Positions 42,412-49,650 of a stretch of 64,000 bases of DNA are shown piece by piece (position 1 is the first letter of the stretch; each line of letters opens with the position of its first letter). The position numbers and the translations under genes are program-made. This DNA comes from Strigamia acuminata (Eukaryota; Arthropoda; Chilopoda; Geophilomorpha; Linotaeniidae), in contig OX442316.1 of NCBI GenBank assembly GCA_949358305.1, positions 11,904,001-11,968,000 of the forward strand, written 5' to 3'. The notes beneath the pieces were generated by a model. The model did not search any database and had not been told where the DNA came from. It was given only the letters and a program-made list of their open reading frames with translations.

Positions 42412-42620
42412 TTAATAGCGATACACAACCTCTCCACCATGTATGAAATATGCAAATTGATCCAAACTAATCTCGTGGATTACTTTTTCTTGGCTGAAAC
42501 ACGTAAAACCAAAGTAACCGCACATATTGCAAGTGCACGCATGCCTGCCAGACGGAATTATGCAACCACATGATGACAAATTAATTGCATTGTTCCTAGA
42601 GAAAATAATAATAGTCACGT
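42412..42620 (-). CDS. Putative cysteine-rich terminal exon
   Basis: After a good acceptor (ttctctag|GAAC, minus strand, exon start about 42,598) one frame is open to a stop at 42,412. It encodes CGCIIPSGRHACTCNMCGY with several closely spaced Cys, then a hydrophilic tail ending GGEVVYRY. A small upstream exon (about 42,697-42,741) has good splice sites, but its phase does not give an open join in this frame. The parent gene is uncertain. It may be a separate small gene or another 3' end of the Mpv17 locus. The upper boundary given is approximate. Confidence 0.35.
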
Positions 42621-42782
42621 AAAACATTAAATTCTTTATTATTTCAAAATAAAATCGCATTACATTTGTTCAAACTTTTTAAATTATAGCATTATACCTG
42701 ATTTGACACGATAAATGCGGTGCACATTGTTTTAAAATTTACTACAATAATAAAATCGAAAAAAACATTTCAATAAAATTCC

Positions 42783-42995
42783 TTAGTCACAAGATACAGA
42801 GGGGGGCGGGTTGCATAGGTTGCATTGGCATTGGTCCTGTTTTTTCCTTCGAAAAAACTTAGCTATCGATTTCAATTTCGAAGAGATCACATGTCGAGGG
42901 GCATTAGGTTCGTGGTGGTCACACTTGGTGGGTCTTGGTGGGTCTTGGTGGGTTGTTGGACTTATCACCCTCTGAGAACACAGAATTTTGATCAT
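42783..42995 (-). CDS. Putative cysteine-rich exon, possible further Mpv17-locus 3' end
   Basis: The minus strand is open for about 65 codons. It contains a basic amphipathic segment, SSKLKSIAKFFRRKK, followed by QCQCNLCNPPPSVSCD and a stop. A plausible acceptor (gttctcag) precedes the ISPTTHQDPPRPTKC part. The mix of an amphipathic basic helix with Cys/Pro clusters resembles the giant Cys/Pro tail encoded just upstream, so the two may be related. No full gene model could be built. Confidence 0.35.
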   Translation of the reverse strand: MIKILCSQRVISPTTHQDPPRPTKCDHHEPNAPRHVISSKLKSIAKFFRRKKQDQCQCNLCNPPPSVSCD

Positions 42996-43098
42996 TCGTG
43001 GACGTGGAGCAGCAATGTAAGAATAAAACTTTTCTTTTCATAAAAAAATTACTAAAATTTTACCATAAAAAAATGGGCATATATTATCGCTATTGTTA

Positions 43099-46000
43099 TT
43101 ATTCGTTTGGTTCACAAGTACAATTATCTTGCAGTTTATGCTTAGGTGGATATTGGAGCGCGCTTTCTGTGGCAGGGAATTGATCCGCTGAAGTTGATAC
43201 TATAGTTACAACATGGGGCGATAGAGCTGCTGGCGGAACAGGAGGTTCAGCCGATGCAGTTGGCGGCACGGCACACGGATCAACCGGTGGAGTTGGCGGG
43301 ACGGCACACGCATCAACCGGTGGAGTTGGCGGGACGGGACACGCAGCAGCCGGTGGAGTTGGCGGGACGGGACACGCAGCAGCCGGTGGAGTTGGCGGGA
43401 CGAACGGTGCAGCCAATGGTGGAGTTACAGATGGAAGTGGAGGTGCTGATAAAGAAACTGTCAAGTGAATTTGGGTTGCCGAATTTGAGGGCACTGGAAA
43501 CGTGCAAATCTGCGCGCCAGGAGTGGAGGAGATAGCCACAGGACCGAACTGCTGGTAAGGCAATTGCGGCCCGTGCAAGTACAAAATCGGATAATTATTA
43601 GCCATTATTGGTTGGTTGTATTCCGATTGTTGTTGTGGTGGTGGCGGCGGTAGCGGTGCTGGTTCCGGTTCCGGTTCCGGTTCCGGTTCCGGTTCCTCTA
43701 ACTCGGCATTATTGGTACCGCATGGTAACACCAAGTCCACCAAGTCCTCTCCAGGCATTGCCGGATCTGGTGACTCGCAATCAATTGAGGGCGGCAAAGA
43801 TTCTTCTTCAGCAAACCACGGATTGACTCCATCGTAAATTGAGGCATCGAATTGCGCATCGTAATTACACGGGTCGTCCGTAATGGGATCGAAATTTTCT
43901 TCTAGTTGTTCATCGTCCGGTATAATTTGCTCTGTGGGCTGCAAAGGGGGAGCTAATTCTGACATGGGGAACTCCTCGCCTTCACTGGACAATAAAGGCT
44001 GCTCATTGTCGTTGGACAGAAGGGACCGATCGACAATTGTGTTCGTTAATTCGTCTAATTGTATCGGCGTTAATTCGACTGATTGTGGCGGCTCTAATTC
44101 GGCTGATTGTGGCGACGCTAATTCGCCGCTTGCCGACTCGTAATAAATAGACGGCGCGGGCGCTGGTTCCTGCAGGAAAAACTCATCGGTCGCATCGGGT
44201 TTTAAATCTTCGGATAAAGGTGTGGGATTGTAATCCTCTTTGCACGGGTCGCAAGGTTCGCACGGGTTGCACGGGTCGCAGGGGTCGCAAGGGTCGCAGG
44301 GGTCGCAAGGGTCTGGGGGCGGTGCTGGAGGTTTATCAGGGACGCAAGCGACAGTGTAGGTTAATTTAGCAGTTTCTGCGCAATCGGGAGGCGAGGGCAT
44401 CTCACCGGCGATGGTTGAAGTTGATATAGGGGCTGATGGACAAGGTGCCGCCTCCAAGATATTTTCCTGCACCGGAACGGACGGAACCGAAGTCCCCGTT
44501 TGGGGCAGCAACAACGAATACACCTGGAATTCTTGGCACGGATGAGTGAACTCGAGCCGCGTTGGCGGCACCTCGAATTGATACGGAGGAGCATTCATAT
44601 TCCGATCGGCAATTTCGATATTGATCGGCGGTATCTCGACATAAGTCGGACCGCTAAACGAATCATCCCCCATTTGCAATTCTTCATCCATCGGCGGCGG
44701 ATCCACATTTGGAACAAACGCTTCCTTAATCTTGAAGCAAAAATCTTTACAGTCGAGTGGATACACCTTGGGTGGGGGACACGTTGATTTTTTGATGCAC
44801 GGTTGGGCCGGACACGTTTTCTTTCTTATGCACTCCTGCTTTAAAGGCGGGCATTTCGGCACCGACACCACTGGGCATGGCGGGGGGGCAGGTCTAGGGC
44901 ACGTTTTATTCTTAATGCACGGAGCGGGCACGACTATTGCCGGGGAAGTGCACGTTTTGGGGCAGGAGGGTCGCCCGGTGCAGATCGGCATCGGACACGG
45001 ACACGTGCCTTTTTGGATGCAGACGGGGGGTGGACGTGGCGGGGGGCTTTTCTGTTTTCTCGGGCACGAGCAGGTGGGCTTGGGTTTGCAAGTGCAGCGT
45101 GGCGGAGGGGCAATTTTTTTAGCCGGTCGAGATTTGCACGTGCAAACTTGGCTCCTGGGTTGGGGGCAAATGGAAACCGGTGAAGTGGTAGAGTGTTTCC
45201 TCATGCAAACTCTCTTTAGGTTCTCTTTGAAGGTTTGCAACTTTCCTTTATTCGACGAGCAATCCGGCACCGATTTCGATTTGCGGATGCATTCGGCCGA
45301 GCGGAATGGATTTTTCACGATCCCCCACACTTTCGATACCAATGGCCAAGTATCGCTATTGTTCAAAGTTACCTGCGATGAGTCACAGAGCTGCAACACT
45401 TCTTCGCTCTGTTTTCCCTCCACGCAGGTGCAGCTGTCCTCTTGACATCGTTTCACCGTCGGTTGTTCATCAAAACACATCAAGACTTTCTCTTCGGGTT
45501 TGTCTCCGCACTTTGCTACGAACGTCTCTTCGCTTTTGTCTACGCACTTCGCTACGAAGGTCTCTTCGCTTTTGTCTACGCACTTCGCTACGCACGTCTC
45601 TTCGCTTCGTTTTTGGGGCTTTGGTTTCTTGTTGCACGTGCAGATCGGTTTCTCTATCGGCGTGTTGTCGCGGGGACAAGTCGCCTTGCCGATGCATTTT
45701 GGTTTTGCCGGCCTTTTCACTTCGACATGCGGTAGCGAGACTGTTGTGGCTAGAGCCGCGATTTGGTTATCGGGGCTTCGAAATTTCATGCAGTCGTCTT
45801 TCTGCACTACCACGCACGTCGGTTTCACTCCGCACGTAATCTTCTCGACTTTACATGAGTTGTCGCAGCATGGTGGTTCGGGCAATTTCTCTTTGGGTTT
45901 GATCAAGCGACAACATTCGTCAAATTCCACGGGTAGATCGTTCTTATGTTTGCCGAATAATACGTTGTTCGCTACGTGTCCTAGTTTTGGTAACATTTGT

Positions 46001-46297
46001 TTGATGCGTTCACCAGTTGATGGACCCTCGTCTTTTTTCTCGGGGAGATCGGGGTGATCGGGGAGATCGGGTTCGTAACAAATAGTTTTCCTGTTCGGGA
46101 AAGGAACGTCGCGACAGATGACTTGTGAGGGCGCATGGACGATGGGTCTTGGTTTGCGGAAAAATTCACATTCTTCGTCTAGTATATAAATTGAACTTGT
46201 TCCATGAACTTTAAAGGGGCATTGTAGACAGGGTTTATTGCACAGCCACATCAGGTAGGAATATGTTATCAACATTGTAGCGTTAATCACTAATATC
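43099..46297 (-). CDS. Alternative last exon of Mpv17: MPV17 terminal helix plus about 1,040-residue Cys/Pro-rich tail
   Basis: A single 3,199-bp exon. After the acceptor (ctacag|GATATTAG) it encodes ILVINATMLITYSYLMW then LCNKP, a diverged copy of the normal MPV17 last segment (IIVVNITALCWNTYLAW then KLNKP; 11 of the first 21 residues identical), in the same phase. It then runs on for about 1,040 residues to the stop after CTCEPNE. The tail has CIxKxTCP motifs (about 44,785-45,690), three SEETFVAKCVDK-type 12-mers (45,491-45,608), about seven xPC triplets (44,241-44,312), an EP run (43,661-43,696) and 11-residue PPTPPxxxC repeats (43,258-43,402). It is clearly more GC-rich than its surroundings. 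No known domain is seen. The repeats recall Cys/Pro-rich structural proteins, for example of sperm mitochondria or tails, but that is inference. Confidence 0.75.
43258..43402. repeat. 33-bp coding tandem repeat, about four copies
   Basis: The unit on the plus strand includes GGTGGAGTTGGCGGGACG. It encodes PPTPPAAACPV and PPTPPVDACAV variants on the minus strand. Copies are nearly identical, so the array is probably length-variable. Confidence 0.85.
44241..44312. repeat. 9-bp coding tandem repeat (DPC triplets)
   Basis: About seven to eight copies of a GGGTCGCAA-type unit encode (D/N/E)PC triplets on the minus strand, placing a cysteine every third residue. Confidence 0.85.
45491..45608. repeat. 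36-bp coding tandem repeat (SEET...KC units)
   Basis: Three copies of a 36-bp unit encode SEETFVAKCVDK-like 12-mers on the minus strand, followed by a degenerate fourth. Confidence 0.8.
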
Positions 46298-46430
46298 CTG
46301 TAGTAAAAATGGCAAATTAGATCAAAATTAAATGCGATTTTTTTTTAACTTAAAAATAAATTAATTTAATTCTACTATGAGTAATCGGTTTCTGCTATTC
46401 GGAACGTTGTGTCCATGCAATAAGATTTTT

Positions 46431-47506
46431 CTAAACATTTAGATTTAGTTGTTTGTTTTCGAAAGGCTTATTCAGCTTCCATGCGAGATATGTATTCCAG
46501 CAGAGAGCTGTTATATTGACGACGATAATCCTGTAAATTAAATAAATTTGGTAGAAATAAATATGCAACTTTTGTTTACATAGCTGCCAATGGATTTAAG
46601 TGGTTTTGGGATAATTTAAACGTTCAAATTAATTTTTAAAAAAAAATCTTCACGTATCATTTGATAAATCGGCAAGAATTACCTATGTTGGAGTGGAACT
46701 ACGTAAAAATTAATTGTCTGCACGGCTGGCCAAATCTAAAAGAACAAAAATAAAGTATTTAAGTTTTTAAACATACAAACACGTATATTCGTTGAAATAT
46801 TAAAACGTACTATGTAATTGGCTTGCAAAATATCTAAGTATTCCTAAAAAATTAAAAAAAAATTCCAATTATCAATTAATTTAAAAACAATTAAAAAAAA
46901 CCCATCAAATATCTACCTCGTTTAATTTATCCCACACTTTAGGAAATGGTTGGTGTTGAACTAACCCCATTACAAGCATAAAGTTCCCTACAAACAACGG
47001 GGCGAAGAACAACTAAAACAAATTTAAAAAATAATTAAAAACAAATTAAAATTTAACAAAATATAACAAACTCAACCTGATCACTCAGCATCTTCTTCAG
47101 AGCTGTCCCAGTAGTTAAACTACTGCCGAACATCTTTTCTAAAATCACATACCAGCCTCTTATTGATGGACCCTAAAAAAAAACATTTAGATTATTCTTT
47201 TTCGTTTGTAAAAGTGTAAAAAAAAAAAAAAACAGAAATAAAAGAAAAACTCACGACGAAAAACATTCCCATAGCTGCAAATCTCGCCGTCCTAGTCGGG
47301 TCTAATTCATTTAATTCCTTCCTGTCCACAAATACTTGGGATAGTACATCCCCAGTACCCATTATAGCAGCTAAAATGAATAAATTAATAAAATTAATGT
47401 AAATAATCGTTAGAAATGTATTTATCTGCAAATTCGATTTCATATAACCCGCTATGCCTACCGGTCTGGAGTGACCATGTTCGCCAAGGACTTTTTTGTA
47501 GAACAT
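46431..47506 (-). CDS. Mpv17: MPV17-like inner mitochondrial membrane protein
   Basis: Member of the Mpv17/PMP22 family, four-helix channel-like proteins linked to mitochondrial DNA maintenance. The first exon (47,449-47,506) reads MFYKKVLGEHGHSRPVGIA and joins in phase 1 to AIMGTGDVLSQVFV. Then come GPSIRGWYVILEKMFG, LFFAPLFVGNFMLVMGLVQ, EYLDILQANYI, IWPAVQTINFYVVPLQHR and the last exon, 46,431-46,530, IIVVNITALCWNTYLAW, ending KLNKPFENKQLNLNV. WPAVQ.INFYVVPLQHR is the family signature. Seven exons with introns of about 50-120 bp. Length of about 180 residues is normal. The same first six exons can also splice to the long exon that ends at 43,099. Confidence 0.92.
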
Positions 47507-48104
47507 GTAAATACCTTTGCCACAGAGCGCTCGCTCTATGCATTTTTTTGTTTTGCTATATTTTTAGAAACACAGATGGCTTTAAGCCTTCTTAAAATTT
47601 GGGATTTTTCTCATCGAATTTGTGTTCGCGCTGCTGCTTCCACGCCACCGTCTGCTCCGGAAGTAAATGCACGCGCTGTTTTTTTCTAGTCGATAAATGA
47701 GCATCGATTATTTATCGATATATTTTATTTCTACTTTTAAAAGCAATTTTATTCGATTAAATAGTGGCAAAAGAAATGACTGTTCTCAACATCGATATTT
47801 TTATTAGTCGCGCCTGCGCAGTTTTTATTTTGGCGGTAAAAGCGAAGTTCCAGTTCAGTTTTAAACACAACCGTACTATGATGTATGGTGACGTCATCGA
47901 CACGGGAGAAGTTGTAGACTTTTAGAAACTTGTTTGAAAAATAATCAGTCTATGCCAACGTGATGTGAGTTAAAATACAGAGAACTTGATGACGCCTTAT
48001 CTACTAATATCAAAATCGCATCACTAACCTATGACTCATCAAGATACCCAACTGCAACCATCAGTAATTATTTCTTGGTATCCACCCACACCCACGTACT
48101 TACA
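47507..48104. promoter_or_regulatory. Divergent promoter region between Mpv17 and ADA, with DRE- and E2F-like motifs
   Basis: About 600 bp separates the two start codons. TATCGATA, the arthropod DRE/DREF core-promoter motif, is at 47,713-47,720. A TTTTGGCGGTAAAA block with an E2F-like core is near 47,828-47,841. Both motif types are common in housekeeping and proliferation promoters; assignment here is from sequence alone. Confidence 0.5.
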
Positions 48105-49650
48105 ATGAGCGCTAGTAAACTGAAAGCGAGGGTAAACATCTTAAGAAAACATTTATTTAACGTGTATAATGTGTTTCTATTTTTACAGGTGGAACTTCAT
48201 GTACATATCGATGGTGCTGCGAGACTTTCCACTATCTGGGAGCTTTCTAAGTGGAATTATTTGTTTTATCTAAGTTTTTAAAAAAAAATTAATTTTATTT
48301 TTATTTCTAGGAAAAAAGGTCTCAAATTACCTGGCGATGGCAGTTTCCAAGCACTGATAGATGCTGTTGTTTCGACCAGAGCTTCCAGTTTGCCCGATTT
48401 TTTGCGTGGTTTTACATACATTCTTGCTGCTCTGAAGTATTATTTATAAACTTTGTAAAAACTCGACCTAATTTTTTGTTATTCAGAGGAGACGAGAAAG
48501 CAATCGAGCGAATTGCATATGAATTATGCGACGATCAGTCCCGACATGGAATAATTTACTTCGAAGGTCGTTACAGTCCTCATTTGCTTGCAGACGGCGA
48601 TGTGACGCCAAGTTTAGTCGTCGAAGCAATTAATAGAGGATTAAAGCGAGGGGAAACCGATTTTAAGCTTAAAGCGAGAAGTATTTTGTGTTGCATATTG
48701 GGCAAACCAGGTATATCTGTGTCGAATTAAGTGTGTGGATTTATAATACGTGTAATTTATGTTTAATTGTAGAATGGTGCGAAGAAGTTGTGCAACTTTG
48801 CGCTAAATATCACGACGCAGGTGTTGTTGCAATTGATATTGCGGGAGACGATTCGATTTACGGTCCCGATTACCCTCAAGAGTACATTGATGCTTTTTTA
48901 GTTAGTATTACAAGTTATTAAATGAATTATTTTGTTGTTATACGATTTAAATTAATTTCGATTTATTTTAGGAGGCTGAAAAACTTGGTATACATCGAAC
49001 TATGCACGCAGGCGAGGTTGGCCCTTGGTTAGAAGTTTATAAAGTATTCATACAGTAAAAAAAAAATAAATGATTTATTAATATGATAATAATAATAATA
49101 AATATAATGCTGAAACGTGTTGGTATAGGCTGTTAACGATCTACATGCTGAACGAATAGGTCATGGCTACCACGTTCTCGAAAACGAACCGCTTTACGAA
49201 GAATTAGTAAAAAAGGACATTCATTTTGAAATGTGTCCGCACTCCAGTCTTTTAACTGGTGGCGTAACTCAAACCACATTGGTTCATCCCATCGTACGGT
49301 AAATTTTATGAATTTTTTTATTTGTTTTTATGAATAAATTTTTCTTTTTCAGCTTAGCAAATGACCGAGCGAATTTTTCTATTAATACTGACGACCCGAC
49401 AGTCACTAACACTTGGATTACGAATGAAATCCAGTTGGTACAACAATGGGGTTTTACCGAAGTTCACTTAATTCGTGCTGTAAGTTGTTTTTTAGTTTTT
49501 TTCTTTTTAGTTTTTAACATTTTTTAAAATTAAAAAAGTATATTTGGGTATTTTTAGGCGTTTAACGCAGCCCGTTCGTGCTTTCTTCCTGAGAATGAGA
49601 AGAATGAGTTGATACAACAACTCAAGTCTACTTTCGGCATTGCTAATTAA
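48105..49650 (+). CDS. ADA: Adenosine deaminase
   Basis: Zinc hydrolase converting adenosine and deoxyadenosine to inosine forms (purine salvage). Nine exons, all phase-consistent, give 342 residues: 48,105-48,131; 48,189-48,250; 48,311-48,436; 48,487-48,710; 48,773-48,900; 48,972-49,043; 49,129-49,298; 49,353-49,479; 49,558-49,650. Zinc and catalytic signatures are present: VELHVHIDG (two His), IHRTMHAGEVGP (His and catalytic Glu region), ERIGHGYHVLE (His) and FSINTDDPTV (metal and catalytic Asp). YFEGRYSPHLLA and KARSILCC also match classical ADA1. There is no signal peptide, so it is the cytosolic ADA type rather than the secreted growth-factor type (ADGF). It is tail-to-tail with the next gene, with about 320 bp between stops. 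Confidence 0.95.

Follow-up and report, generated by a model that had tools for sequence, protein, structure and literature searches.

The Mpv17 locus of Strigamia acuminata raises the question of whether one gene can end in two alternative last exons, one encoding the ordinary C-terminus of MPV17 and the other a tail of more than 1,000 residues. The window analysed here is the whole stretch of 64,000 nucleotides in which the locus lies (GenBank assembly GCA_949358305.1, contig OX442316.1, positions 11,904,001 to 11,968,000); coordinates refer to the window. On its minus strand, from 47543 to 43099, a normal Mpv17 gene is followed by an open exon of 3,199 bp which starts 133 bp past the Mpv17 stop codon. 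We call the ordinary last exon 7a and the long one 7b. Joined to exons 1-6, exon 7a gives a predicted product of 191 amino acids and exon 7b one of 1,224 amino acids. A preliminary description had proposed a duplicated last exon with mutually exclusive 3' ends, and reading phase, the donor-less 7a, Pfam scoring and codon comparison all support this. The prediction that Mpv17 chooses by splicing between an ordinary and a tail-bearing end is thus well supported by the sequence. The gene rebuilt from sequence also returned the boundaries proposed earlier for 7a (46530-46431) and 7b (46297-43099) and agrees with the expected long product of about 1,200 amino acids with a tail of more than 1,000. 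The two ends were described correctly, with the corrections that the gene starts at 47543 instead of 47506 and that the short product has 191 and not about 180 residues.

The splice sites define how the two last exons can be reached. The donor of exon 6 is in phase 2. After an AG acceptor, 7a and 7b alike begin with G/ATN, the G completing the Arg codon of ...LQHR; the common GAT start in the same phase had been recognised before and is confirmed. Among 15 acceptor positions, 10 are pyrimidines in 7a and 11 in 7b, and the five upstream Mpv17 acceptors have 11 to 13. Donors were scored with a generic metazoan weight matrix. The six inferred Mpv17 donors score 2.7 to 8.8, and no usable donor was found for 7a, where the six GT dinucleotides (three in the exon, three in the gap that follows) score -4.6 to -0.9. 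Consequently 7b would be reached through skipping of 7a, and in-line inclusion of both exons is ruled out. Exon 7b itself contains two strong donor-like sites on the minus strand, at 45372 (CAG/GTAACT, score 9.2) and 44405 (CCG/GTGAGA, score 10.0), which would make further isoforms possible.

Exon 7b begins, as judged by alignment and profile scores, with a genuine Mpv17 last helix. Its first 22 codons, ILVINATMLITYSYLMWLCNKP, share 11 of 22 residues with the 7a segment IIVVNITALCWNTYLAWKLNKP at a BLOSUM62 score of 58, and neither this score nor this identity was reached in 200,000 shuffles, which excludes chance similarity. When only the first 19 residues are taken, the shuffle fraction is 8e-5 by score and 1.5e-4 by identity. 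The Pfam profile PF04117 (cut-off 27 bits) gives the same picture. Exons 1-6 with 7a are a full-length family match (81.2 bits, profile positions 1-62 of 62), and the core of exons 1-6 without a last helix scores 52.1 bits. Tested as a construct in which the core is followed by 35 residues from the start of 7b, the alternative end scores 64.1 bits and the match extends over positions 1-61, taking in the last helix; with five shuffled 7b helices the score is 54.1-57.3 bits and the match ends at position 47-50. Taken without the upstream exons, 7b has no Pfam match at an expectation value (E) up to 1, Mpv17 included. The nearest relative of the 7b helix is 7a. In hand-set ungapped alignments 12 of 23 residues are identical to 7a (BLOSUM score 63), as compared to 5-7 identities and scores of 2 to 34 for the last helices of four Mpv17 paralogs from the same genome, a set in which the gene cluster on C3 is represented by L013 alone. 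An origin of 7b from another paralog is therefore not favoured among these five sequences, and local duplication of the last exon is the simplest history.

The codons of the two helices provide what we regard as the best evidence that 7b is translated as an Mpv17 end. Eight of ten degenerate residues that are identical in 7a and 7b use different codons, and over the 22 codons synonymous differences per site (pS) are saturated at 1.06 with nonsynonymous differences (pN) at 0.40. The same pattern holds ahead of the first in-frame ATG, which is codon 8 of 7b: the seven preceding codons have pS 1.03 and pN 0.29. Silent sites that are saturated next to residues that are partly kept, also upstream of the Met, would be hard to explain if 7b were not spliced to Mpv17. 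The position of this ATG nevertheless allows another reading, in which 7b is a separate gene with a promoter in or upstream of 7a and a start at the codon-8 Met (MLITYSYLMWLC...), the Mpv17-like beginning being a leftover of the duplication. A long Cys/Pro-rich frame in a single exon would resemble many short-promoter germline genes. In a separate gene, however, the seven codons before the Met would be untranslated, and they and the phase-2 acceptor stay Mpv17-like despite the saturated silent sites, although only seven codons are concerned; moreover, a membrane helix would need a longer hydrophobic stretch than the one past the codon-8 Met. We consider a separate gene unlikely.

The remainder of 7b is a long coding frame of low complexity. 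A stop-free run of 1,065 codons has an expectation of about 3e-20 under independent and identically distributed bases, so that a chance open frame is rejected; the other five frames across 7b contain 19-47 stops. The 1,065 codons include 75 Cys and 188 Pro. The earlier wording 'Cys/Pro repeats' fits this composition but is loose, since tandem repeats occupy short stretches only. Codons 1-540, with the helix counted in, are basic and Cys-rich (53 Cys; 89 Lys + Arg, 58 Asp + Glu) and contain five CIxxxTCP-type motifs at codons 201, 426, 460, 489 and 500. The remaining codons, with 22 Cys, 9 Lys + Arg and 81 Asp + Glu, form an acidic, Pro-rich half. Hydropathy along 7b rises to 1.0 or more only in the last helix and does not exceed 0.91 thereafter. 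A single-sequence AlphaFold model of 7b has a mean predicted local distance difference test score of 31.9, which speaks neither for nor against a fold.

Constraint within the tail is mixed. Repeats chosen by amino acid motif are biased towards conserved residues, and the test was therefore redone on five arrays defined at the DNA level. Their periods (9, 36, 33, 24 and 6 bp) are all multiples of three. The DPC array at 44242-44313 (pN 0.068, pS 0.45) and the 36-bp array at 45489-45607 (pN 0.045, pS 0.20) look constrained in frame, and the 6-bp array at 43661-43696 shows zero differences. Another reading has 7b spliced to Mpv17, with a tail that evolves fast, is weakly expressed as a by-product and has little function. 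This would agree with the remaining two of the five arrays, which have nonsynonymous but no synonymous differences, and with the failure to detect a second genomic copy of 7b. Against such a by-product stand the 1,065 codons without a stop, the array periods in multiples of three and the constrained DPC array, and we judge it quite unlikely.

The cysteine content could also suggest a metal-binding, metallothionein-like extension, a role that the preliminary description had considered. With 75 Cys in 1,065 residues, CxC (7) and CxxC (8) spacings lie slightly above their shuffle means of 5.3 and 5.2. These counts were reached by 143 and 81 of 500 shuffles, respectively, so that there is no metallothionein-like excess. 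Similarly, CxxxC (5) and Cx9C (6) were reached by 300 and 225 of 500, and the excess of twin CX3C/CX9C spacings typical of intermembrane space proteins was not seen in this comparison either. Adjacent CC pairs are rarer than in shuffles (2 versus a mean of 5.2), and the tail matches no Pfam family at E up to 1. These spacings do not favour a role in metal binding, which we regard as very improbable. With its low complexity and no known domain, the tail would be more in keeping with a structural, cross-linked protein than with an enzyme or a domain that binds metal.

Several observations weigh against a translated Mpv17 end with a functional tail. The codon comparison covers few positions (22 and 7 codons). 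The arrays at 43247-43402 and 44047-44125 show the reverse of constraint (pS 0; pN 0.11 and 0.27, respectively) and appear under stronger constraint when read in the two shifted frames. MPV17 is a four-helix protein, and the whole fusion has three hydropathy peak regions of at least 1.0, not four. A tail of about 1,000 residues is unusual on an imported membrane protein. For 7a, the sole hexamer resembling a poly(A) signal is an ATTAAA, which is weak evidence in such AT-rich DNA, and 459 nt separate the 7b stop from the first AATAAA. Nothing in the sequence of the window points to testis. Finally, no similarity is left between the intron sequence ahead of 7a and that ahead of 7b (22 of 51 positions); together with the agreement of only 30 of 66 nucleotides between the helix segments, this indicates that the duplication, if real, is old.

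Table 1. Features of the Mpv17 locus and its two predicted 3' ends (window coordinates)
Feature	Coordinates	Strand	Remark
Mpv17 exon 1	47462..47543	-	start codon ATG at 47543; donor G/gtaggc
Mpv17 exon 2	47255..47370	-	gene rebuilt from sequence
Mpv17 exon 3	47077..47172	-	weakest donor of the gene, gttgag, score 2.7
Mpv17 exon 4	46917..47012	-	gene rebuilt from sequence
Mpv17 exon 5	46811..46843	-	gene rebuilt from sequence
Mpv17 exon 6	46683..46735	-	donor common to both ends, phase 2 (...LQHR)
Exon 7a, ordinary Mpv17 last helix and stop	46431..46530	-	full PF04117 match, 81.2 bits
Gap of 133 bp: 3' untranslated region of 7a, then 7b acceptor	46298..46430	-	one ATTAAA at 46370
Exon 7b, predicted alternative Mpv17 last helix, Cys/Pro-rich tail and stop	43099..46297	-	3,199 bp; 1,065 whole codons
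7b helix segment similar to 7a, ILVINATMLITYSYLMWLCNKP	46231..46296	-	22 codons
Tail half, basic and Cys-rich	44677..46230	-	five CIxxxTCP motifs; 36-bp tandem repeat 45489-45607
Tail half, acidic and Pro-rich	43102..44676	-	DPC array 44242-44313; 33-bp array 43247-43402
First AATAAA past the 7b stop, putative poly(A) signal	42635..42640	-	hexamer scan

To account for these features we propose that the last Mpv17 exon was duplicated locally long ago and that the copy, extended with about 1,040 Cys/Pro-rich and partly repetitive codons, became 7b. Splicing of exon 6 to 46297 with skipping of 7a would then produce the 1,224-residue protein, in which the MPV17 core would act as membrane anchor. 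From the sequence features described above, we infer that 7b is spliced to Mpv17 in vivo and that the tail is membrane-anchored, and we consider this likely. Cysteines in the intermembrane space can be oxidised to disulfides by the Mia40 pathway. The preliminary description had placed the tail at the inner mitochondrial membrane, which agrees with MPV17 being a protein of that membrane; according to a topology study, the C-terminus of tagged recombinant MPV17 and of yeast Sym1 faces the intermembrane space, which sharpens the location (PMC4117752). The same study reports that endogenous MPV17 is trypsin-resistant after rupture of the outer membrane, and as of 2014 it calls MPV17 a protein of unknown function (PMC4117752). 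Given this orientation, the 7b tail would lie in the intermembrane space, where its cysteines may become oxidised and cross-linked to form a structural element. The most likely setting for such an element would be the remodelled mitochondria of spermatids. This structural and spermatid part of the explanation is drawn from analogy and is tentative.

Put together, exon duplication and extension would have turned MPV17 into the anchor of a disulfide-linked scaffold in the intermembrane space of sperm mitochondria, with a housekeeping protein and a scaffold encoded by one gene through the choice of its last exon; as a whole this picture is doubtful. If it is true, a natural isoform with an MPV17 core and a huge Cys/Pro tail would show that the fold can act as an anchor, and deletion of 7b alone would offer a clean genetic test of a tissue-specific role. 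It would also bear on the make-up of mitochondria, perhaps those of sperm, and on MPV17, whose function in the inner membrane is unsettled.

In the 237.5-Mb assembly, three protein searches (one with the whole of 7b at E 0.001 and two with segments of it at E up to 10), which gave 4, 2 and 1 candidates in the first pass, detected no second copy of 7b; a transposon or multi-copy origin is thus not supported. The 719 bp that follow 7b are likewise single in the genome. Another Mpv17-like gene, L013, lies at C3:27.26-27.85 Mb in seven full-length copies which are 96-100% identical and one partial copy with 75% identity; six of the seven full copies sit at 27.26-27.37 Mb. A further Mpv17/PMP22 paralog, L002 (C3:26142247-26142696), scores 74.7 bits with PF04117 in one uninterrupted frame of 217 codons and is possibly a retrocopy.

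Mpv17 is arranged head to head with a gene for adenosine deaminase (PF00962), whose start is at 48105 on the plus strand, and the two genes may share the promoter region of about 560 bp between them (47543-48105). Directly past the 7b stop lies a short Cys-containing frame (...KLKSIAKFFRRKKQDQCQCNLCNPPPSVSCD; 42790-43042, minus strand), and close by another frame, which has an ATG, runs out at three copies of a 10-bp repeat (42924-42953). The 42790-43042 frame may be 3' untranslated region, an extra exon or a relic. A short Cys-rich frame (SSCGCIIPSGRHACTCNMCGYFGFTCF...; 42415-42595, minus strand) has a good acceptor in phase 2, matching the Mpv17 exon 6 donor, and no homology was found for it. 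Neither of the two small downstream frames has a Pfam match at cut-off, and a likeness to the tail is unsupported, the scores being reached by 287 and 30 of 300 shuffles. TCAGG telomere-type repeats gave 37 forward and 32 reverse 25-mer matches, where a reversed control gave 1 and 0; such repeats are a slight hint of an arthropod, for example a beetle.

Among known systems, the closest is the MPV17/Sym1 family itself, as exons 1-6 with either last exon score well above the PF04117 cut-off. Unlike its relatives, 7b adds about 1,040 residues; the four paralogs end 0, 0, 4 and 9 residues past the last-helix segment and 7a ends 10 residues past NKP. A sequence search of the PDB with the 191-residue MPV17 gave no matching chain up to E 10, and among the titles and abstract openings retrieved on Mpv17 alternative last exons, Tribolium, topology and C-terminal extensions, with few subscription journals covered, no such tail was described. 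The sperm mitochondrial protein SMCP has no membrane anchor and is far shorter than the 7b tail. By analogy only, it resembles 7b in being rich in Pro, Cys and Gln, in being named for sperm mitochondria and in its expression, higher in testis than in skin; it differs in having a gene to itself within the epidermal differentiation complex, which the study found in placentals but in neither monotremes nor marsupials, and its role is called uncharacterised there (PMC10791643). In nearly all insects, mature sperm possess two mitochondrial derivatives, and paracrystalline material builds up in one of them or in both; the Drosophila S-Lap proteins are constituents of this material (PMC6388916). The S-Laps are encoded by paralogous genes and not by an alternative exon, and the word 'cysteine' is absent from the main text of that paper; they are similar to the proposed MPV17 form in that leucyl aminopeptidases carrying mitochondrial targeting sequences came to serve a structural role in the mitochondria of insect sperm (PMC6388916).

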